From Gemmatimonadaceae bacterium (GTDB lineage Bacteria > Gemmatimonadota > Gemmatimonadetes > Gemmatimonadales > Gemmatimonadaceae), in the NCBI GenBank assembly GCA_019752115.1, contig JAIEMN010000010.1, positions 62,001 through 126,000 of the forward strand: 64,000 bases of DNA, given 5' to 3'. Under the pieces are notes generated by a model. It did not search any database. It was not told where the DNA came from and saw only the letters and a list, made by a program, of their open reading frames with translations. The position numbers and the translations under genes are program-made. This document shows, piece after piece, positions 27,027-40,150 of this stretch (its first letter is position 1; every line of letters starts with the position of its first letter).

Positions 27027-27545
27027 ATGGTCGAAGTCACCGTTTCCCGTCTCGGGCTCGACAGCACCACGAACTCCTACGTGGTCATCCTTCGCGAACG
27101 CGGCGGGCGACGGCTGCTGCCCATCTGGATCGGCCAGCCTGAGGCGGAGTCGATCGTGATGCACATGAACGACATCAAGCGTGAGCGTCCCATCACGCAC
27201 GATCTCTGCAAGGCGCTCATCGTCGGGCTCGGCGGCACGCTTCGGCGCGTGACCATCACACACGTGCAGAAGAACACCTACTTCGCCACCATGCATGTGG
27301 ACGGGCCCGCCGGCCTCGTCGAAGTGGATGCCCGCCCGTCCGACAGCATTGCCATCGCGCTGCGCTGCGCGGCGCCGATCTTCGCCCCGGAGTTGCTCCT
27401 CACCGCGGTCGAGGAGAGCGACGCCGACGAGGACGAGGGCACCGGCGCCGCCGAGCCGCCGAGTGCCTCGGAGCTCAGCGCTGACGAACTGAAGCGGTAT
27501 CTGGGTAGTTTGCGACCGGAAGATTTTGGGCGATTCACGCCCTGA
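27027..27545 (+). CDS. Bifunctional nuclease (BFN/DUF151) family protein
   Basis: ATG 27027 starts MVEVTVSRLGLDSTTNSYVVIL, the classical N terminus of the family. RLLPIWIGQPEAESI and DARPSDSIAIALR are conserved blocks. Members in plants have RNase and DNase activity; in bacteria the role is mostly undefined. The last 40 residues form an acidic, alanine-rich tail (ESDADEDEGTG). No signal peptide is seen, so it is cytoplasmic. Length is 172 residues. Confidence 0.85.
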   Translation: MVEVTVSRLGLDSTTNSYVVILRERGGRRLLPIWIGQPEAESIVMHMNDIKRERPITHDLCKALIVGLGGTLRRVTITHVQKNTYFATMHVDGPAGLVEVDARPSDSIAIALRCAAPIFAPELLLTAVEESDADEDEGTGAAEPPSASELSADELKRYLGSLRPEDFGRFTP

Positions 27546-27570
27546 ACTCGTCGTTCGCCAGCCCCTCCGT

Positions 27571-28761
27571 ATGCGCCGTCTGGTTCTCTGCGCCCTGACC
27601 GCTGCCGCCTGCGCCGTGCAGGCGGCGACCGCTCAGTCTCCGCGCTCCATCGAAGGCCGTGTCCGTCGCCCCATGCCCGGTCGTGGCGACTCGACCGGCA
27701 TGGGCCCGGCCGCGAACGTGTGGGTCACCTTGCATCGCCTCGGCAAGGACAGCGCGGGGCCCATCGACTCTGTGCGCGCCGATGCCAATGGCCACTATCG
27801 GCTGCAATGGCGCCCCTTCGGTGCGCCGGAGGCCGTGTACTTCGCCTCAGTCACCTATGGCGGCATCGCCTACTTTGCGCCACCGGCCAAGAGTGAGCAC
27901 GCGTCAGGCGACGATGGCGAGATCACCGTCTTCGACACCACGTCGCGACCGTTTCCGCTGAGCGTGAAGGGGCGGCATCTCATCGTCGGCAAGCGCGACA
28001 CCGGCAACGTGCGCACCGTCATCGAGGTCTTCGAACTCTCGAACGACAGCCTGCAGACGATCATCGCCACCGGCACCACGACCCCGACGTGGAGCGTGCG
28101 CATCCCCGGGGCGGCCACGAATGCCCGCGTGAATTCGGATGAGGTGTCGCCGCAGGCGTTTCGCGTGCAGAATGGCCGCGCCGAGATCTTTGCCCCCGTA
28201 CCGCCCGGCGTGAAGCAGGTCTCGTTCACGTACAGCGTGCCGGAGAGTGCCTTTCCGCTCGCCTTCACCGCCGAGGCGGGGGCGGTCGTCTTCGAGATTC
28301 TGCTCGAAGATCTGGACGCGACCGTGCAGGCCATGGGCTTCACGCGCGTTGGCGAAGTCACGCTCGAGGGGCGCCAGTTTCAGCGCTTCCTGGCGCAGGA
28401 CGTCAAGCCCGACACGCGCCTCGCGGTGGATGTCCCCACCGCGAACGCGCCGGCGAGCGGCGCCCTGCAACGCTACGGCATCGTCATTGCCATCGGCTTT
28501 TTCGTGCTGCTGCTGGTGGGGCGCCGCATGCAGCGCAGCGCGAACGCGCGCGTGAACGCGCCGCTCCCCACGCTGCGCACCACCGTGCGCGATGACGACA
28601 CCGAGCCCGAGCGGTTGCGCGATGCCATCCGCCAGCTCGACGCCGCGTGGGCGAAGCAGACCGCACCCACCGAGCACCTGCAGCGGACTTACGAGGCGCG
28701 CCGGCAGGAGCTCGAGGCGGCGCTCGCGCAAGCGCTTGCCGAGTCCGGAACGGCACGGTAG
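27571..28761 (+). CDS. Exported, membrane-anchored beta-sandwich protein of unknown function
   Basis: ATG 27571 opens a signal peptide (MRRLVLCALTAAACAVQA, cleavage near TAQ). A carboxypeptidase-regulatory-like domain follows (SIEGRVRRPMPGRGDS to DANGHYRLQW), then beta-rich regions that resemble exported domains ending before a single membrane helix (YGIVIAIGFFVLLLVGRRM, about residues 305-325). A cytoplasmic tail of about 65 residues is charged and probably coiled-coil (ERLRDAIRQLDAAW). I do not recognise the family. It immediately precedes the riboswitch promoter but should be a separate unit. Confidence 0.6.
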   Translation: MRRLVLCALTAAACAVQAATAQSPRSIEGRVRRPMPGRGDSTGMGPAANVWVTLHRLGKDSAGPIDSVRADANGHYRLQWRPFGAPEAVYFASVTYGGIAYFAPPAKSEHASGDDGEITVFDTTSRPFPLSVKGRHLIVGKRDTGNVRTVIEVFELSNDSLQTIIATGTTTPTWSVRIPGAATNARVNSDEVSPQAFRVQNGRAEIFAPVPPGVKQVSFTYSVPESAFPLAFTAEAGAVVFEILLEDLDATVQAMGFTRVGEVTLEGRQFQRFLAQDVKPDTRLAVDVPTANAPASGALQRYGIVIAIGFFVLLLVGRRMQRSANARVNAPLPTLRTTVRDDDTEPERLRDAIRQLDAAWAKQTAPTEHLQRTYEARRQELEAALAQALAESGTAR

Positions 28762-28766
28762 CTTCG
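28736..28766 (+). promoter_or_regulatory. Promoter-like TTG-N20-TAGCTTCG before the riboswitch
   Basis: TTG 28736-28738, a 20-base spacer and TAGCTTCG 28759-28766. Transcription would begin about where the riboswitch P1 stem starts (28769), which supports the call. It lies inside the last codons of the preceding gene. Confidence 0.55.
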
Positions 28767-28768
28767 AA

Positions 28769-28989
28769 GGGTCGCCCACAGGGGGCGATGACAACTGATT
28801 TCGAGCGCGGGACACGGAAGCCGGTGCAACGCCGGCGCGGCCCCGCCACTGTAACGGATCCGATTCCCTTCACGGGAAACGGCGTGCGCGTTGGAAGCCA
28901 CTGGTTGCAATACCGGGAAGGCGAAGCGCACCTGACGGGCGGCACTCTTCGGAGTGGCGCGCGACACATCCGGAGCCAGGAGACGACCC
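28769..28989 (+). ncRNA. Cobalamin riboswitch
   Basis: The conserved core reads GGAAGCCGGTGCAAC then GCCGGCGCGG and the signature CCGCCACTGTAAC (GCCACTG at 28845-28851). A downstream conserved box GGAGCCAGGAGAC sits at about 28972-28984. P1 closes GGGTCG (28769-28774) with CGACCC (28984-28989). This is the adenosylcobalamin-class aptamer arrangement. It precedes btuF and a strong intrinsic terminator, so ligand binding should lower expression of the uptake genes. Confidence 0.92.
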
Positions 28990-29070
28990 ACGCTCTTTCT
29001 TTGACGAAGACCCTCGAGGGGGGGCTCGTGCAATCGTGTCGTCGCCTTCGCGCGCCGGCATGCGTGCTCG

Positions 29071-29106
29071 GGCGTCTTCTCGTGGGAGAGGACGCCTCTT
29101 TTGTTT
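29071..29106 (+). terminator. Riboswitch-controlled intrinsic terminator overlapping the btuF ribosome binding site
   Basis: Eleven-base arms GGCGTCTTCTC (29071-29081) and GAGAGGACGCC (29086-29096) with a GTGG loop and one G-U pair, then TCTTTTGTTT. The 3' arm contains GGGAGAGGA (29084-29092), which is the best ribosome binding site for the TTG at 29101. The same hairpin could both end transcription and block translation. Confidence 0.8.
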
Positions 29107-30072
29107 CCTCCCCCACGATTTGGACGCCGCGCGGTACGGTTGGGAGTCCTGGCGCTGCTGGGAATCGCCACCGCCTGCGCGGAATCGAAATCGACCGACG
29201 GGGCTGCGCGCGACCGCGCCGCCACCGATGCAGCGCCATTGGCGCCCGCTGATACCGACGACTTCGGTGCGCCGCTCCCGCGCGACGCGAGCGCCGCCGC
29301 ACGCGTCGTGTCGCTCAATCCGGCCGCCACCGAGATCATCTACGCCATCGGCGCCGAGTCGCATCTCGTGGGCCGTTCGCGCTGGGATGCATTTCCCGAC
29401 GCCGCAAAGGAACTGCCGTCGCTCGGCGATGGCATCAAGCCGAATGTCGAGGCGGTCCTCGCCGCCAAGCCCACACTGGTGGTGCTCTACGCGACCGCCG
29501 ACAATCGCCCGGCCGCTGACGCCTTCGCGCGCGCCGGGGTGAAGACGCTCGCGGTGCGCGTCGATCGCATCGCCCAGTTCCATACCCTCGTGCACACGCT
29601 TGGCGTTGCGCTCGGTGAACCCGCGCGCGCCGCCCTCGTGAGCGACTCCGTGAAGGCCACGCTGGCGCGGGTGCAGGCGACGGTGGATCGCCTCGTGCCG
29701 GCCGCGCAGCGCCCGACCGTGGTGTGGCCGGTGTGGCTCACGCCCCCCATGGTCATCGGCGCCGGCAGCTATCTCGACGAACTGCTTACCATCGCCGGTG
29801 CCACCAACGTCTTTCACGACCAGCCCGGCCCGTCGCCGCAGGTGAGCGTGGAGGAGATCATCACGCGCAATCCGTCGCGGGTGGTCACGAGTGAGACGCG
29901 TGCGCGCGAACTGCGCGCGTCGCCCTCGTGGGGGGCGTTGCCGGCGATCAGGCAGGGCGCCATCGCGCTCGATGATCCCAAGCTCGCGGGGCGTCCGTCG
30001 GTCGTGCTCGGCATGGCCGCGGTGCAGCTCGCGCGCGCACTGCATCCGCAGTGGGCCGACTCCATTCACTGA
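29101..30072 (+). CDS. btuF: Cobalamin-binding ABC lipoprotein BtuF
   Basis: Periplasmic substrate-binding protein of the B12 importer. TTG 29101 is favoured because it follows a strong ribosome binding site and gives a lipoprotein signal (FGRRAVRLGVLALLGIATAC, Cys26). The mature part has the class III binding-protein fold: RVVSLNPAATEIIYAIGAE at the start and SVEEIITRNPSRVV in the second lobe. About 323 residues. The acidic low-complexity stretch after the lipid cysteine is a linker. It is the first gene downstream of the cobalamin riboswitch. Confidence 0.9.
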   Translation: MFPPPRFGRRAVRLGVLALLGIATACAESKSTDGAARDRAATDAAPLAPADTDDFGAPLPRDASAAARVVSLNPAATEIIYAIGAESHLVGRSRWDAFPDAAKELPSLGDGIKPNVEAVLAAKPTLVVLYATADNRPAADAFARAGVKTLAVRVDRIAQFHTLVHTLGVALGEPARAALVSDSVKATLARVQATVDRLVPAAQRPTVVWPVWLTPPMVIGAGSYLDELLTIAGATNVFHDQPGPSPQVSVEEIITRNPSRVVTSETRARELRASPSWGALPAIRQGAIALDDPKLAGRPSVVLGMAAVQLARALHPQWADSIH

Positions 30073-30079
30073 GTCGATC

Positions 30080-31096
30080 ATGACGCCCGCGCGCTCCTCG
30101 ATCCCGACCCCCTCGCGCTTGCCGCTCGCCTGGAGCGCGGGCGTCGCGCTGCTCGCGCTCGTTGGGGTGCTGGCGCTGGCCTTCGGGTCGGCGTCGCTCC
30201 CCATCGCGCAGGTCATCCAGGCGCTGCAGGGGCAGGGAGACGCGGGCACCGTCGCGATCGTGCAATCGCTGCGCGCGCCACGCGTGGTGCTGGCCATGCT
30301 GGTGGGCGCCGCACTCGCCATGAGTGGGGGCACCTTGCAGGGCACGCTGCGGAATCCGCTGGCGGAGCCCTATCTGCTCGGCGTCTCGGGCGGCGCCGCG
30401 GTCGGCGCGGTGCTGGCCATGGTGCTCGGGCTGCACGCGCCGCTGGCCATCACCGGGAGTGCCTTTGCCGGCGCCGCGATGGCTACGCTGCTCACGACCG
30501 CGCTGGCGCGCGTGGCGGGCGGCGCGGGCGATACGCGCCTCCTCATCATGGCGGGCGTCATTGTGGGGGCGTTCGCGAACGCTGTCATCATGGTCGCGCT
30601 GGCCGACGCGCCCGCCGAGCAGGTGCGCGGTGCACTCTGGTGGATGATGGGCTCCGTGGCCGATGCGTCGTGGGGGAGCGTGGGGCGCGCGGTGGTCGCG
30701 ATGCTGCCGCTCGCCGGCTGGCTCGTGTGGCGGGCTCGTGATCTCGACGTGATCGCGCTGGGGGCCGAGCCGGCCATGGCCCTCGGTGTTGACGTGGAAC
30801 GTACGGCGCAGTGGCTCTTCCTCGCCGGCTCGTGGCTGGCAGCGGCCACGGTCGCGTCGGCGGGGCTCATCGGCTTCATCGGTCTCGTGGTGCCCAATCT
30901 CGCGCGGGCGATGGGCGCCACGCGGCATCGCCCCATGCTGCTCCTGTCGGCGCTCTACGGCGCGGTGCTGCTGGTGGCCGCCGATCTCGCGGCGCGCACG
31001 CTGCGCGCACCGGTGGAGCTGCCGCTGGGCGCGGTGACCGCGCTGGTGGGCGTACCGTTCTTTCTGCTGCGCTTGCGTCGGGTCGCGGCCTCATGA
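30080..31096 (+). CDS. btuC: Cobalamin ABC transporter permease BtuC
   Basis: ATG 30080 gives 338 residues of the FecCD permease family with about nine to ten membrane helices. Typical segments are LRAPRVVLAMLVGAALAMSGG, GTLRNPLAEPYLLGVSGGA, and GLIGFIGLVVPNLAR with the coupling region. It forms the inner-membrane channel that receives B12 from BtuF. It overlaps btuD by four bases. Confidence 0.9.
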   Translation: MTPARSSIPTPSRLPLAWSAGVALLALVGVLALAFGSASLPIAQVIQALQGQGDAGTVAIVQSLRAPRVVLAMLVGAALAMSGGTLQGTLRNPLAEPYLLGVSGGAAVGAVLAMVLGLHAPLAITGSAFAGAAMATLLTTALARVAGGAGDTRLLIMAGVIVGAFANAVIMVALADAPAEQVRGALWWMMGSVADASWGSVGRAVVAMLPLAGWLVWRARDLDVIALGAEPAMALGVDVERTAQWLFLAGSWLAAATVASAGLIGFIGLVVPNLARAMGATRHRPMLLLSALYGAVLLVAADLAARTLRAPVELPLGAVTALVGVPFFLLRLRRVAAS

Positions 31097-31917
31097 GCGC
31101 GCGCCTGCCGGCCCCCGCGTTGCGCTTCGATGGGATCACGGTGCGCTATCCGCGTCGCGACGAACCCGCGCTCGATGGCGTGTCGCTCGAGGCGCGCCCG
31201 GGGCGGATCACCGCCGTGGTGGGGCCCAACGGGAGCGGCAAGAGCAGTCTGGTGCGCACGCTGCTCCGGCGCGTGCCCTTGGCGAAGGGCGAAGTGTTCG
31301 TCGGCGACCAGGCGCTGCGTTCGGTGGACGCGCGATCCCTGGCCCGGACGGTGGCGATCGTGCCGCAGCGCGAAGAGCCGCTGCTGCCCATGCCGGTCGC
31401 CGAGTTCGTGATGCTGGGGCGTCATCCGTGGCGGCGGGCCTTCGGCGCGCCCTCGAGCGCGGATCACGAGGCGGTGGAGCGCGCACTGGTGCGGGCGGGC
31501 ATGGCCGATGCTGCCGCGCATCTCACCGATTCGCTGTCCGGTGGTGAATGGCAGCGGGTGCGTATCGCCCGCGCGCTGGCACAGGATGCGCCCGTGCTCG
31601 TGCTCGATGAGCCCACCACGTTCCTCGATATCGCGCACGAAATGGCGGTCTTCGAGCTCGTCGATACCCTCGCGGCCGAGGGGCGCACCGTGCTGCTGGT
31701 GAGTCATCAGCTCAATCTCGTCGCGCGCTTTGCCGGGCACATCGTGCTGCTGCACAAGGGCCGGGTGGCGGCGGCGGGTGCAGCCGCGGATGTCATGCGT
31801 GGCGAGGTACTCGAGCAGGTGTATGAGTGGCCGCTGGTGGTGACGCGCGATCCCGCCGTGGGCGCACCGGCTCTGCTGCCGCTGCGCGGTGGCGCCAACC
31901 GGCGGAGCGAGCCGTGA
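31093..31917 (+). CDS. btuD: Cobalamin ABC transporter ATPase BtuD
   Basis: ATG 31093 gives 274 residues. Walker A GPNGSGKSS, Q-loop PQREEPLLP, ABC signature LSGGEWQR, Walker B VLVLDEPT and the switch histidine in LLVSHQLN are all intact. It powers BtuC in the inner membrane. The C-terminal 40 residues are longer than the core fold. It overlaps the TonB receptor gene by four bases. Confidence 0.92.
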   Translation: MSARLPAPALRFDGITVRYPRRDEPALDGVSLEARPGRITAVVGPNGSGKSSLVRTLLRRVPLAKGEVFVGDQALRSVDARSLARTVAIVPQREEPLLPMPVAEFVMLGRHPWRRAFGAPSSADHEAVERALVRAGMADAAAHLTDSLSGGEWQRVRIARALAQDAPVLVLDEPTTFLDIAHEMAVFELVDTLAAEGRTVLLVSHQLNLVARFAGHIVLLHKGRVAAAGAAADVMRGEVLEQVYEWPLVVTRDPAVGAPALLPLRGGANRRSEP

Positions 31918-33926
31918 TCCCGCTGCTGCCGCTCGCGCAGCTGGCCTCGGTACTCTGTGTGGTGGACGCCGTCACCGGCGCGCCGCTCGTGGGGGCCGCG
32001 GTGCGTGTCGGCACCAGCACGCGCGTGTGGCGCGCCAGCTGTGAGGCGGTGCGGGCCTCGGGCGATTCGGTGCAGGTCCGGCGCGCGGGATATCAGCCAC
32101 GCGCCATCGCCTGGCGGGCATCGGGCGACACGATCGTGCTGGCACTCTGGCCGATGGGCCGCGCGCCGCAAACGCTCGCTGCCCAGCGCGTCGTCGCGCC
32201 CGCGGCTCGCGCGGGGGTGGCCACCGCGGTCTCGCAAGGCGCCGCCGATGCGCGCATGCGTGGGGCCGGCTCAACCAGCGCGCTCCTCACCCTGCTCCCC
32301 TTCACGCAGCTTCGCACGGCGCGCGGCGAAACCGGAGTCTCGTTGCGCGGCGCGCGGCGCGAGCAGGTCGTGATGACACTCGATGGCCTGCCGCTCAACG
32401 ATCCCGCGACCGGCGTCGCCGATGTGAGTGACATTCCGCTTGCGGCCCTCGGGTCGGCCACGGTGGCGCCGGGTGCCGACCCCGTCGGTGCCGGGCTCGG
32501 CGCCTCGGGCGGCGTGATCGCCCTCACCACACGCGCGCAGCAGCTGGTCAGTCTGCAGCGTGGTGCCTTTGGCGCGACGCAGATGGAGGCCGCGACGGCT
32601 GGCACGGTGGGCACGGCCCGCTGGCACGCCGCGGCCACCTGGCGCCGCGCGCAGAACGATTTTGCCTTTGTGAATGATGCCGGGGTGACGCCGGTCCGCG
32701 AGGTGCGCACCAACAACGATGAAGCGCGCGCGGCGCTCAGCGCGGGCGTGGTGCAGGGCGCCACGCAGCTGGCGCTGCTCGCGTCCACCAGCGAACGCGG
32801 CATGGTCGGCCCGGCGAACGTGCGCAGCTACGATCACGATCGCGCACGCACCGACCGGATCACGCTGCGCCTGCAGCAGGGGATGCACGCGTCGCTCGCG
32901 AGTGTGGGCGTGCGGCATTTCACGCTCGCCTATCGTGACCCCACGCGCCCCGCGCTCGACAGTCGGGCGCAGGCGTGGGCGGCCGATGCCGACTGGCGCG
33001 GCACGCTGGGGCCCGGTACCTGGCGCGCGGGCGCCGGCGCCGACGGGCTCACCGCCACCGGTAGCATCACGCAGCGGCGCACGCGGGGCTTCGCCGCCTA
33101 CGGCATCGAACGCGCGCTCACCACGCGCGGGCAGCTGGACGTCGGGGTGCGCACCGATGCGGTCGAACGGCTCGGCGTCCAACCCACCGGCTCGCTCGGC
33201 CTCACGTGGTCGCTCGCCACGGTCGGGGGCGTGCAGCTCGGCGCGGTGATGCGCGGCAGCCAGGCGGTACGCGTCCCCACGCTGTACGACCTCTACTTCA
33301 GCAGCCCCCAGCGGCTTACCGTCACGACGCTGGCGCCGGAGCGCGTCACGCTCGACGCCAGCACCGGCATCACCGCGCGCACCGGCGCAGCCGAGCGGTC
33401 GCTGAGCGGCGAAGTGCTGGCGGTGTCGCGTACCACACGCGAGGCGATCATCTGGTTCCCAGGCAACTTCGGGTGGAGCCCGGCGAACGTGGGGCGCGAA
33501 ACGCTGCGTGGACTCGAGACGCGCGCCGCCGCTGTGTGGGGCGCCTGGCACGCCGATGGCTGGCTGACCCGCTACGACGCCCTGCTGCACACCAACGGGT
33601 TGCGCATCCCCACGCCGTACGTCGCCCGCGTCGCCGCTGGCGTGCGCGCGCAGCACGAGCATCGGCTGGCCACGCTCAGCGCGAACGCGCGCTACGTGGG
33701 CCGCCGCCCGTACACCGCGGGGCCGCGTGACCCGTTCTTCGAACTTCCCGCCGTGTGGCTTGTCGATGGAGCCGTCAGCCATCACCGGTCGGTGCATCGC
33801 ACCGATGTGCTGGTGACGCTCGCGCTCGACAACGCCACCGATGCGCGCTGGCAATCAGTGCGCGGTTTCCCGATGCCCGGACGCAGTTGGTCGCTGGGCA
33901 TCACCGTCGAGCCGGTCCGTCGCTGA
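31914..33926 (+). CDS. TonB-dependent receptor, probable B12 receptor (BtuB-like)
   Basis: GTG 31914 overlaps the btuD stop; 670 residues. An N-terminal carboxypeptidase-regulatory-like segment (CVVDAVTGAPLVGAAVRVG) is followed by a plug domain (VSLRGARREQVVMTLDGLPLNDP, GASGGVIALTT) and a 22-strand-type barrel. The outer-membrane protein would take up cobalamin using TonB energy. The N-terminal signal peptide is atypical (MIPLLPLAQLASVLC), with no positive residues, so an alternative start or export route is possible. Substrate is inferred from the riboswitch and btuCDF context. Confidence 0.82.
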   Translation: MIPLLPLAQLASVLCVVDAVTGAPLVGAAVRVGTSTRVWRASCEAVRASGDSVQVRRAGYQPRAIAWRASGDTIVLALWPMGRAPQTLAAQRVVAPAARAGVATAVSQGAADARMRGAGSTSALLTLLPFTQLRTARGETGVSLRGARREQVVMTLDGLPLNDPATGVADVSDIPLAALGSATVAPGADPVGAGLGASGGVIALTTRAQQLVSLQRGAFGATQMEAATAGTVGTARWHAAATWRRAQNDFAFVNDAGVTPVREVRTNNDEARAALSAGVVQGATQLALLASTSERGMVGPANVRSYDHDRARTDRITLRLQQGMHASLASVGVRHFTLAYRDPTRPALDSRAQAWAADADWRGTLGPGTWRAGAGADGLTATGSITQRRTRGFAAYGIERALTTRGQLDVGVRTDAVERLGVQPTGSLGLTWSLATVGGVQLGAVMRGSQAVRVPTLYDLYFSSPQRLTVTTLAPERVTLDASTGITARTGAAERSLSGEVLAVSRTTREAIIWFPGNFGWSPANVGRETLRGLETRAAAVWGAWHADGWLTRYDALLHTNGLRIPTPYVARVAAGVRAQHEHRLATLSANARYVGRRPYTAGPRDPFFELPAVWLVDGAVSHHRSVHRTDVLVTLALDNATDARWQSVRGFPMPGRSWSLGITVEPVRR

Positions 33927-33975: not shown

Positions 33976-35121
33976 ATGATCCTGCAGGACTCCACCGTGA
34001 TTCGTCGCGCTCTGTCCGGGGCGTCGCTGGCTGCTGTCGCCTTGGCCGCGGCGTGCGGAAGCGATTCGCCCACGCTCGTGCAGCCCGGTCCGCCTACGGG
34101 CATCGTGGTGCTCGACGGGTTCATTCAGCCCGGCTACACCTTGGTGGGTGACACTGGCACCGCCACGACCAAGATCAACCTCGGCAGCACCACCGAGTTC
34201 GACGCCGGTGGCTTCTCCCTCCTGCGCGACACCCTGCTGGCGGTGTCGAGCCGCGGCGCGGGCGACCTCCTGTACATCACCGACGTGAAGTCGGGGGCCG
34301 TGCGCCGCGTGCAGCTCCCCAGCAAGAGCAACCCGGGCCGGGCGCGCCTCTTTACCGGCACCGGCGGCAACACGCTCATCGCTGCCGCGCTGCGCGATTC
34401 CGGCAGCATTGCCCTCGTTACGATCGCGGCCGGCAACGCGACCAGCACGCGCATCGCCAACGCTGGCAACTGCCCCACGGATGTCTTCAAGTACGGCACG
34501 GACACGTGGATTGTGGACGCCAACGCCAACTGCAAGGTGAACTACACGGTGCAGGGCGATGTGCGCCTCATTCGCGTGCCGGCCATGGGCACCACGCGTG
34601 ATACGCTCGTACTCACCGGGCTGCGTGGCTCGGGCGCCGGCGCCATCGTGCAGGGCGACGTGGCCTACGTGAGCGCCGGCGGCGACGCCAGCTTCGCGAG
34701 CTTCCCGTACACGCTCATCGCGAGTGGCGCTATCGCCAAGGTCGATCTCAAGAACCGCCGCGTGCTCCTGACCAAGCCCATGCCCACCGGCACCTACGGC
34801 GCCGGCGTGAAGCTTGGGCTCGATGGCTTCCTCTACGCGAGCCTGTACGAAAATCTCAGCACGTTTACCAATCGGGTGGTGAAGCTGCGCACCGATGACC
34901 TGTCGTTCGTATCGAATGGCACGACGTCGTGGCTCAACCTGACCAATAGCAGCGGCGCCGCCGTAACCTGTGGAAGCGCCATGGCCGACGCCCTCGGCCG
35001 CCTGCATTGCATCGCCAACGGCACCGGCTCGGTCACGTCGCTCATCGTGTTCAACGCCGGCTACGTGGAGACGCGCCGGGTGACGGCGGGGCAGGGCGGG
35101 GTGGATATGGCGCTGCGGTAG
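33976..35121 (+). CDS. Surface-lipoprotein candidate with beta-propeller, BtuG-like
   Basis: ATG 33976 starts a lipoprotein signal (ALSGASLAAVALAAAC, Cys27). The 381-residue mature region has repeated strands typical of a YncE-like beta-propeller, such as DLLYITDVKSGAVRRVQLP, GDVRLIRVPAMGTTRD, GAIAKVDLKNRRVLLTKP and DGFLYASLYENLS. It lies 50 bases after the BtuB-like gene and is the last gene of the B12 operon. In Bacteroides, BtuG is a propeller lipoprotein that caps BtuB and binds cobalamin very tightly. Gene order and fold suggest a similar role here, but sequence similarity to BtuG could not be checked. Confidence 0.6.
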   Translation: MILQDSTVIRRALSGASLAAVALAAACGSDSPTLVQPGPPTGIVVLDGFIQPGYTLVGDTGTATTKINLGSTTEFDAGGFSLLRDTLLAVSSRGAGDLLYITDVKSGAVRRVQLPSKSNPGRARLFTGTGGNTLIAAALRDSGSIALVTIAAGNATSTRIANAGNCPTDVFKYGTDTWIVDANANCKVNYTVQGDVRLIRVPAMGTTRDTLVLTGLRGSGAGAIVQGDVAYVSAGGDASFASFPYTLIASGAIAKVDLKNRRVLLTKPMPTGTYGAGVKLGLDGFLYASLYENLSTFTNRVVKLRTDDLSFVSNGTTSWLNLTNSSGAAVTCGSAMADALGRLHCIANGTGSVTSLIVFNAGYVETRRVTAGQGGVDMALR

Positions 35122-35213: not shown

Positions 35214-37717
<2,504 letters not shown>

Positions 37718-37721
<4 letters not shown>

Positions 37722-37815
37722 CCGACCTCCGCACCCAGCTCCAATCCACGCTCGGCGACAGCTACACCCTCGAGCGTGAGCTGGGTGGTGGCGGCATGTC
37801 GCGCGTGTTCGTGGC
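37718..37815 (+). repeat. Near-identical repeat, copy 2 (kinase 2 start)
   Basis: This is the matching copy of the 98-base block at 35214-35311. Confidence 0.8.
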
Positions 37816-40150
37816 CCACGAGAATGCGCTCGGCCGCACGGTGGTGGTGAAGGTCATTGCCCCCGAGCTGGCCGAGGGCGTCAGCGCCGATCGCTTTGCG
37901 CGTGAAGTGAAGCTGGCGGCGCGGTTGCAGCAGGCCAACATCGTGCCCGTGTTGAGCACGGGCAGCTCGGGCTTGCTGCCGTACTACACGATGCCGTTCG
38001 TAACCGGGGAGTCGCTGCGCGCGCGGCTGTCGAATGGGGCGCCGCTCACGGCTTCGCAGTCGCTCAGTATTCTGCGGGACGTGGCGCGCGCGCTGGCGTA
38101 CGCGCATTCGCAGGGCGTGGTCCATCGGGACATCAAGCCGGAGAACATCCTGCTGTCGGGTGGCACGGCGGTGGTGACGGACTTCGGGATCGCCAAGGCG
38201 CTCAGTGCGTCGCGCACCATTGGTGACGGTGGCACCGCTGCGGTCACAAGCGCTTCGCTCACGCAGGTTGGCGGCTCGATCGGCACGCCGTCGTACATGG
38301 CGCCCGAACAGGCCGTGGGCGCCGACGTCGATCAGCGGGCCGACATCTACGCGTGGGGCGTCCTGGCCTACGAGCTGCTCACGGGCACCCATCCGTTTGC
38401 GGGCAAGGCGAACTCGGCGCAGATGATCGCGGCCCACCTGTCGGAAACGCCGGTGCCGCTCACCCAGCGAAGCACGGCGGTGCCCGACTCGCTGAACGGC
38501 CTCGTGCTCCGCTGCCTCGAGAAGGACGCGGCGCATCGGCCGGCGAACGCGGAGGAGGTGCTGCAGATCCTCGATGGCGTGGCGACGCCCGGCGGAGCCA
38601 CGGGGGCGCGTGCCGGTGGCACACCGGCGCCGACTGCCCGTCGGGGCCGCAGTCTGCTGCTCGCCGGCGGCGTCCTCGTGGCCGCGGTGGCGGCGGCGAT
38701 CCTGCTGCGGCGCGGGGGCAGTGGGTCGTCGCCCTCGCGCACGGCCGCCGCCGTGAACGCCACCGCGAGCGCACCGAACCGGTCGATCGCAGTGCTGCCG
38801 CTCGCCAATCTGAGCGGCGACAAGGCCGACGATTTCTTTGGCATCGGGTTGGCTGAGGAGATGACGCGCGCCCTCTCCAAGACCGGTGTGCGCGTCATTG
38901 GCCGGTCGAGCGCCGGGGCGCTGCAGGCGCGCGGTCTGGATGAGAGTGCCATCGCGCGTGAACTGGGGGTGGGCTCACTGCTCACCGGCAGCGTCCAGCG
39001 CGCGGCGGGGCAGGTCCGGGTGAATGTCTCGCTCGTGTCGGCCAGCGATGGCGCGGTGACGTGGACCGAGAAGTATGATCGGCCACTCACCAACGTCTTT
39101 GCGTTGCAGGACGAAATCGCGCGGGCGGTGGCCACCAAGCTGCTGGGCGCGTTGGACGGCGTGCGTGCGGCGACGGCGACGCGCGTTGAGACCGCCGACC
39201 CTGAGGCCTACGCGTTGTACCTGCAAGGACAGGTGATGTTCGGGCGTCGTACGGCACAAACCGTACGGCAGTCGATCGCGCTCTTTGAACGCGCGGTGGC
39301 GCGGGACCCGCAGTTCGCGCGCGCCCATGCGGCATTGGGGTTAGCGCTGGCGTCTATCCCGTTCTACGAGCAGGGCACTGCCCGCATCACGGCACCGATG
39401 GCCATTGCCGCGGCGCGCAAGGCGATTGCCATCGACTCCACGGTGGCCGAAGCGTGGGGCGCGATCGCCTCGGCGCAGATGGGCGTCTTCGATAATCGCG
39501 TGGCGGACGCGAACTACCGACGCGCGCAGGCCCTCGATTCCAGCGTAGCCATCCTCTGGGGCTGGCACGCACTCAATCTCGTCCACATGGGACGCTTCGA
39601 GGAGGCGCGTGACCATGCGGCCCGGGCGCAGGCGGCCGAACCCGCGTCGCTGATCGCACGGACCTGGGGGGCCCAGCTGCTGATGACCGAGCGCCGCTAC
39701 CGCGAGGCCGACTCCGCCGCGCGCTCGATCCTGTCGATGGACTCCACCTATGCGTTGGCATGGGATGTACGAGGGGAGGCGCTTAGCTACCTCGGCCGAC
39801 ACGACGAGGCCATCGTCGCGCTGCAGCACAACCTGGAGCAGCTGCCGAGGAACCTCCCCAATCAGACTGAAGGCGTGCTCGCCTATGTGTACGCGCGTGC
39901 CCGCCGCCCCGCCGACGCGCGACGCGCCATGGAGAATCTGCGCGTGAAGAATGGCGGCGAAATGCCTGCCATGGGGGTGCTGGCGGCAACGCTGGAAGTG
40001 TTGGGCGATCATGCGGCCGCCGTGACGCTGATCGAGCGGGCCGTCAAGCAGCCCGACAGCTGGCTGCAGATGTACAACCGCGCCGAACGCTACGATGCGT
40101 TGCGCAAGGATCCGCGGGCCGATGCGATCATGAAGAGCATCGAGCAGTGA
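37718..40150 (+). CDS. Ser/Thr kinase 2 with FlgO/TolB-N-like and TPR domains
   Basis: GTG start overlapping the kinase 1 stop, 810 residues. The kinase domain has [25 protein letters not shown] and [11 protein letters not shown] membrane helix lies at about 311-331 ([18 protein letters not shown]), then [20 protein letters not shown] begins the TolB-N/FlgO-like domain, followed by TPR-like repeats. Same architecture as kinase 1 but divergent beyond the first 33 codons. The array pauses here: the next two genes are on the other strand. Confidence 0.88.

Follow-up and report, generated by a model that had tools for sequence, protein, structure and literature searches.

A predicted BtuG-like propeller lipoprotein paired with a BtuB-like receptor in a cobalamin-riboswitch operon of Gemmatimonadaceae

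Does a lipoprotein gene lying directly behind a btuB-like receptor gene in a Gemmatimonadaceae bacterium encode a lid that captures vitamin B12 for that receptor? In Bacteroides, BtuG2 is described in excerpts of PMC6143338 as a seven-bladed surface lipoprotein with femtomolar affinity for B12, and excerpts of PMC10404256 describe how it binds B12 on its negative face, caps BtuB and releases it to the receptor as loop EL8 moves inward. Trp194, Trp272 and Tyr316 are among the pocket residues of BtuG2. Two papers present BtuG, or lipoprotein-capped TonB-dependent transporters, as exclusive to Bacteroidetes, and in the partial, open-licence literature covered no report of BtuG-like proteins outside Bacteroidetes was found.

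The operon and its terminal lipoprotein gene

The DNA analysed, called the window, is the whole stretch of 64,000 nucleotides at 62001-126000 of contig C10, and the locus in question comprises the following features:

28751..29005, + strand: cobalamin riboswitch RF00174 (cmscan 60.6 bits, gathering 31.5)
29070..29097, + strand: terminator-like hairpin in the gap between riboswitch and btuF (12-pair stem, T-rich tail; pattern match only)
29101..30072, + strand: btuF, lipobox-bearing periplasmic B12-binding protein (Peripla_BP_2, 2.2e-29)
30080..31096, + strand: btuC, permease (FecCD, 2.7e-82)
31093..31917, + strand: btuD, ATPase (ABC_tran)
31914..33926, + strand: btuB-like TonB-dependent receptor P0002 (Plug and barrel domains in Pfam, Foldseek)
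33976..35121, + strand: predicted BtuG-like beta-propeller lipoprotein P0001 (lipobox, AlphaFold2 model, Foldseek)
34099..35118, + strand: predicted propeller domain, residues 42-381 of the lipoprotein (27 strands in the model)

The riboswitch is the sole Rfam match in the window and the sole cobalamin riboswitch found genome-wide, and the hairpin behind it is a possible candidate for its expression platform. The coordinates of btuF are those of the longest open reading frame and its true start may be further in. Matches of the transporter genes to NCBIfam models point to cobalamin import while staying below the respective cut-offs: btuF matched the BtuF model NF002894 (4.9e-27), the top matches of btuC were BtuC models, and that of btuD was the corrinoid ABC ATPase NF007082. 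Four-base overlaps join btuC to btuD and btuD to btuB. The lipoprotein gene follows btuB after 49 bases, or after 70 bases if translation starts at the GTG at 33997, which stands behind an AGGA-like site and reads as an equally plausible start, and a terminator scan found no plus-strand terminator-like site between the two genes. The open reading frame was confirmed as real and its product of 381 residues carries a signal peptide and the lipobox LAAAC with Cys27 (codon 34054-34056), leaving a mature lipoprotein of 355 residues with a pI of 9.1 that contains 24 acidic and 30 basic residues. The riboswitch score, the btuFCD matches, the lipobox and the short gap thus bear out the initial annotation, which had placed a lipoprotein directly after a BtuB-like receptor under cobalamin-riboswitch control.

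Other observations concern the surroundings of this operon. Just 5' of the riboswitch, positions 27526-28761 encode a 411-residue protein of unknown function that is present in nearly all loci of the window's type (type A, below) reaching that far, with related sequence also upstream in another family of the class, f7 (L131). Behind the operon, two serine/threonine-kinase-like proteins are encoded in tandem (35214-37721 and 37718-40150), and their identical N-terminal stretches of about 30 residues suggest a recent duplication or conversion of the 5' end. Elsewhere in most genomes of the genus, for example at G021:C1:2076857-2077070, there is a second, higher-scoring cobalamin riboswitch of about 107-125 bits, which the window genome does not have.

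Predicted folds of the lipoprotein and of its receptor

Sequence comparison did not connect the lipoprotein with any known family. Its best Pfam match, GTP_EFTU_D4, had an E-value of 0.11 and was discarded as chance; no NCBIfam family matched, no PDB sequence matched at E-values up to 10, and DUF5074 (PF16819) did not match at E-values up to 1. When the family profile A2 was compared with PDB sequences, only four chance matches were obtained and BtuG was not among them. The protein also stays outside the BlastP threshold of 1e-10 by which, in the available part of PMC6143338, BtuG proteins were delimited, and on sequence we would not class it as a member of the BtuG family.

At the level of predicted structure a different result was obtained. 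From an alignment of 25 sequences (the window protein and those of 24 related loci), AlphaFold2 produced a model with a pLDDT of 85.5 and a pTM of 0.84, containing 27 strands over residues 42-380, and the strand list of this model can be read as seven blades, the last of which is closed by the C-terminal strand. The beta-propeller proposed in the initial annotation is therefore upheld by prediction. Superposition on BtuG, the check that had been suggested there, also favored the proposal. A Foldseek search of 350,542 PDB chains gave 1556 matches, of which ranks 1-11 were all BtuG (BtuG1/2/3-type chains or 3dsm; E 1.7e-9 to 1.9e-8), with NirN and XusB behind them. In VIA-align, ranks 1-8 were again BtuG (Z 27.3 to 25.8, 298-307 residues, 3.2-3.4 Å), the best being BtuG1 (8blw_B), which superposed over residues 38-381 with Z 27.3 and 3.2 Å for 307 residues. 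Identity to BtuG in these structural matches is 8-10%, and as the first non-BtuG structure, 1ri6 from E. coli, reached Z 25.8, the lead of BtuG over lactonase-like propellers in VIA-align (27.3 versus 25.8) is modest.

This small lead bears on the possibility that the protein is a generic YVTN/lactonase-like propeller, for instance a corrinoid enzyme or a scaffold, that merely belongs to the same regulon. The presence of 6-phosphogluconolactonase-like proteins among the propellers with Z 24-26 would fit such a protein, but an unbiased search puts BtuG at every leading rank, and together with the gene pairing described below this makes a generic function distinctly unlikely.

The score of the receptor against TIGR01779, the NCBIfam model of the B12 receptor, was 57.4 bits and so remained far from the equivalog cut-off of 599.7, and phmmer found no PDB sequence at 1e-8. 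A model made from 21 sequences (pLDDT 76.9) retrieved BtuB at all Foldseek ranks from 1 to 14, headed by BtuB3 of B. thetaiotaomicron from the BtuB3G3 complex (8p97_A, 4.9e-30) and followed by E. coli BtuB. VIA-align gave Z-scores of 36.0 for BtuB1 of BtuB1G1 (8blw_A), 35.1 for E. coli BtuB and 35.0 for FecA, so that the order of BtuB and FecA in that comparison is nearly tied. A receptor closest to BtuB, the btuFCD genes and the cobalamin riboswitch all speak against the idea that the pair captures another ligand such as a siderophore, in the way XusB serves XusA; XusB chains do occur in the Foldseek list from rank 13 down, and we consider such a role extremely improbable.

Conservation and exchange of the receptor-propeller pair

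Of 61 genomes in a set of relatives that includes the window genome, 25 carry a lipoprotein of the kind encoded in the window (type A), and 24 of these 25 are among the 30 genomes of the genus. By profile, the count for the phylum is 31/395 genomes. The receptor was detected at E-values below 1e-40 in 23 of the 30 genus genomes, all 23 of which also have the lipoprotein, and the lipoprotein gene of the 24th genome (G009) sits at a contig start. A tblastn search of 36 wide loci gave a lipoprotein match in 27, and in 26 of these btuB lies directly upstream on the same strand, with 0-192 bases between the match ends; the 27th begins at a contig end. Even at 23% identity, in L131 from another family of the class, the order btuF-btuC-btuD-btuB-propeller is kept; in L132, near a contig end, the same order lacks only btuF, and in L133 and L134 the lipoprotein, detected by profile only, again adjoins btuB. 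As it is shared by different genera and by a further family of the class, this gene order exceeds what chance would produce. One locus (L034 5167-6968, in G026) has a btuB interrupted by a change of frame or a stop next to an intact propeller gene, reflecting either an assembly error or a pseudogene.

Type A is missing from 6/30 genomes of the genus. In G001, G004, G021 and G022 a divergent btuB is followed by a different propeller-like lipoprotein (type B), and the type-B locus of the first three also shows a riboswitch and btuFCD. G004 in addition retains a type-A locus (L138) with btuF, btuC and btuD (68-74% identity) and the riboswitch, from which receptor and propeller are both missing together. 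In the remaining two genomes without type A the contig ends within btuD (L139) or just past btuF (L140). A search for type B in G019 gave no match; among the matches listed, type B was absent from G017 and from the 19 type-A genomes of the genus that appear there (0/19).

Beyond the genus, a profile of three type-B proteins gave matches in 114/390 Gemmatimonadota genomes, the weakest of which may be other propellers. For 60 of these matches, drawn largely from the head of the list, regardless of neighbours and not exhaustively, the flanking genes were inspected, and every one of the 60 had at least one btu gene match nearby. Directly upstream of the propeller gene, on the same strand and within 600 bases, btuB was found in 46 of them; in four, a partial btuB match lay at a distance of 716-1631 bases, eight had btuD directly upstream with no btuB found, and two were arranged otherwise. 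The eight loci in which the propeller follows btuD (L247, L253, L255, L259 and L263-L266) belong to members of one order; in L255, where the arrangement was checked against the list of open reading frames, the next gene is presumably RecO-like. A cobalamin riboswitch was present in 13 of the 15 type-B loci searched for RNA families. The survey of B12 loci in the phylum that the initial annotation had called for therefore yields two kinds of B12-linked propeller lipoproteins, and the proposal that a BtuG-like, BtuB-paired lipoprotein exists outside Bacteroidota gains support from fold, operon, conservation of the pair and recurrence throughout the phylum.

Type B also supplies a sequence connection. 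A 36-member type-B profile matched PDB sequences of BtuG1 (3e-11), BtuG3 (1.9e-5) and BtuG2 (1.1e-4). Its better match was the archaeal YVTN surface protein 1l0q (2.2e-21), so that the relationship may be with YncE-like propellers in general. That a generic YVTN protein ranks first in this profile fits a generic propeller, but tight pairing with btuB and replacement jointly with btuB argue for a partner of the receptor. Type A and the 36-member type B aligned over 332 columns including the lipobox (probability 99.4, E 1e-21), and this alignment, the btu context and the match of type B to BtuG1 together place the window protein in a Gemmatimonadota group of B12-linked propeller lipoproteins, whose type-B branch provides the sequence link to BtuG. 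DUF5074 gave weak matches below the cut-off in some type-B and family f7 relatives (1.4e-5, 2.6e-4 and 0.0074) and in 4 of the 36 type-B members.

Some further observations were made on these loci. A survey of 298 genomes for DUF5074, tried as a route to BtuG-like loci, was abandoned, as only one of the 30 loci taken (L171) lay beside a BtuB match. Two type-B propeller matches stand in tandem behind btuB in L215 and L216 (G294 and G275). Several loci among L217-L229, from class-level relatives, seem to have an open frame that continues upstream of the propeller, and the stretch ahead of the propeller in L222 (7543-8544) looks Ig-like by eye.

Membrane side, cobalamin supply and known systems

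Among 24 scanned type-A N-termini a lipobox was found in 23, the missing one being cut by a contig start, and one pick (L029) looks wrong. The strict Bacteroidetes export signal C-X-K-(D/E)2 is absent from the window protein, which reads C-G-S-D. An acidic residue at positions +2 to +4 after the cysteine occurs in 22/23 type-A propellers versus 8/21 BtuF proteins (Fisher p 5e-5, ignoring that the sequences are related and not independent), and by eye also in 5/5 SusD-like proteins of the window genome. We are not aware of any export signal described for this phylum. In Bacteroidetes, surface signals contain acidic residues near the cysteine according to excerpts of PMC5080379, and the acidic pattern leans towards a location of the propeller at the cell surface. 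Conservation of the loops by face amounted to 0.565 versus 0.550, a difference attained in 105 of 338 circular shifts, and to 0.596 versus 0.550 (p 0.04) if one 29-residue loop is left out, which makes for a weak preference for one face. Acidic, basic and aromatic residues number 7, 6 and 9 in the loops called top and 5, 6 and 2 in those called bottom. The window genome has five SusD-like matches (L174-L178), four of them over the Pfam cut-off, and other lidded receptors may thus exist in the phylum.

A lipoprotein on the periplasmic side of the outer membrane could instead pass B12 from BtuB to BtuF, or aid the folding or signalling of BtuB. Such a location would agree with the lack of the strict export signal, with the lipoprotein nature of BtuF from the same operon and with the 8/60 type-B loci in which a propeller adjoins btuFCD and no btuB was detected. 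Against it stand the acidic residues that set propellers and SusD-like proteins apart from BtuF, albeit in related sequences, and a fold nearest to that of surface-exposed BtuG, and we regard it as unlikely.

Need for a scavenging aid is suggested by several observations. No match to CbiC was found in the window genome, in a search whose control was positive in 7/14 genomes, and the B12-binding domain has four matches there. In the part of PMC10581226 available, Gemmatimonadota cultures are reported to require cobalamin, and genomes of the phylum to contain btuB while genes of the de novo pathways were not found. A protein that helps to scavenge B12 would make sense in such an organism.

Fold, lipid anchor and gene context are shared with BtuG, and sequence, charge and form of the export signal differ; taken together, the lipoprotein most likely works like BtuG, and we think it probable that it is a B12-capturing lid for BtuB. 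Counted against this are the identity of 8-10%, the basic character of the mature protein in contrast to the negative B12-binding face of BtuG2, the weak face conservation, the missing strict export signal and the 8/60 type-B loci with btuD before the propeller and no btuB found. By analogy with the Bacteroides complexes, surface side, B12 binding and lid mechanism would then be as follows. Low intracellular cobalamin would, from what is known of the family, release the riboswitch, and the operon would then make the BtuFCD importer, the outer-membrane BtuB and the lipoprotein. Lipid-anchored at the outer membrane beside BtuB, as in the solved BtuBG complexes, the seven-bladed propeller would act as the lid, one face of which captures corrinoids and passes them to BtuB, with TonB-driven import as the last step.

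The finding is larger than a single odd gene, as the arrangement of BtuB and propeller is recurrent and, in the partly available literature found, had not been described for the phylum. Lid-assisted B12 uptake may accordingly be much wider than thought. Evenly balanced, in our judgement, is the broader proposal that lidded B12 transport characterises Gemmatimonadota throughout the phylum, with at least two divergent BtuG-like classes, each swapped jointly with the BtuB that matches it. The capped receptor would then either predate Bacteroidota and Gemmatimonadota or have been transferred between them, and would not be an adaptation to the gut. If true, the conserved pair would take the strategy beyond the gut to environmental Gemmatimonadota that require B12, provide a non-Bacteroides system in which it can be tested, and mean that divergent lids were missed by the sequence searches used so far.

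Among known systems, the predicted fold is alike over the whole domain to BtuG1, BtuG2 and BtuG3 of B. thetaiotaomicron (8blw, 8bmy, 8okv, 8p97) and to 3dsm of B. uniformis, and the likeness extends to a lipoprotein signal and to the place of the gene next to btuB in a B12 operon headed by a riboswitch. The window protein differs from BtuG in its low identity, its basic mature form, its phylum, the lack of the strict Bacteroidetes export signal and the lack of a DUF5074 match; to DUF5074/YncE-like propellers, only its relatives show weak matches. With the xenosiderophore lipoprotein XusB and its partner XusA it shares the design of a propeller lipoprotein serving a TonB-dependent receptor, but XusB follows only from the 13th Foldseek rank on and the context of the window locus is B12. 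SusD and SusC likewise combine a lipoprotein lid with a TonB-dependent receptor, SusD being a helical lid for glycans and not a propeller.
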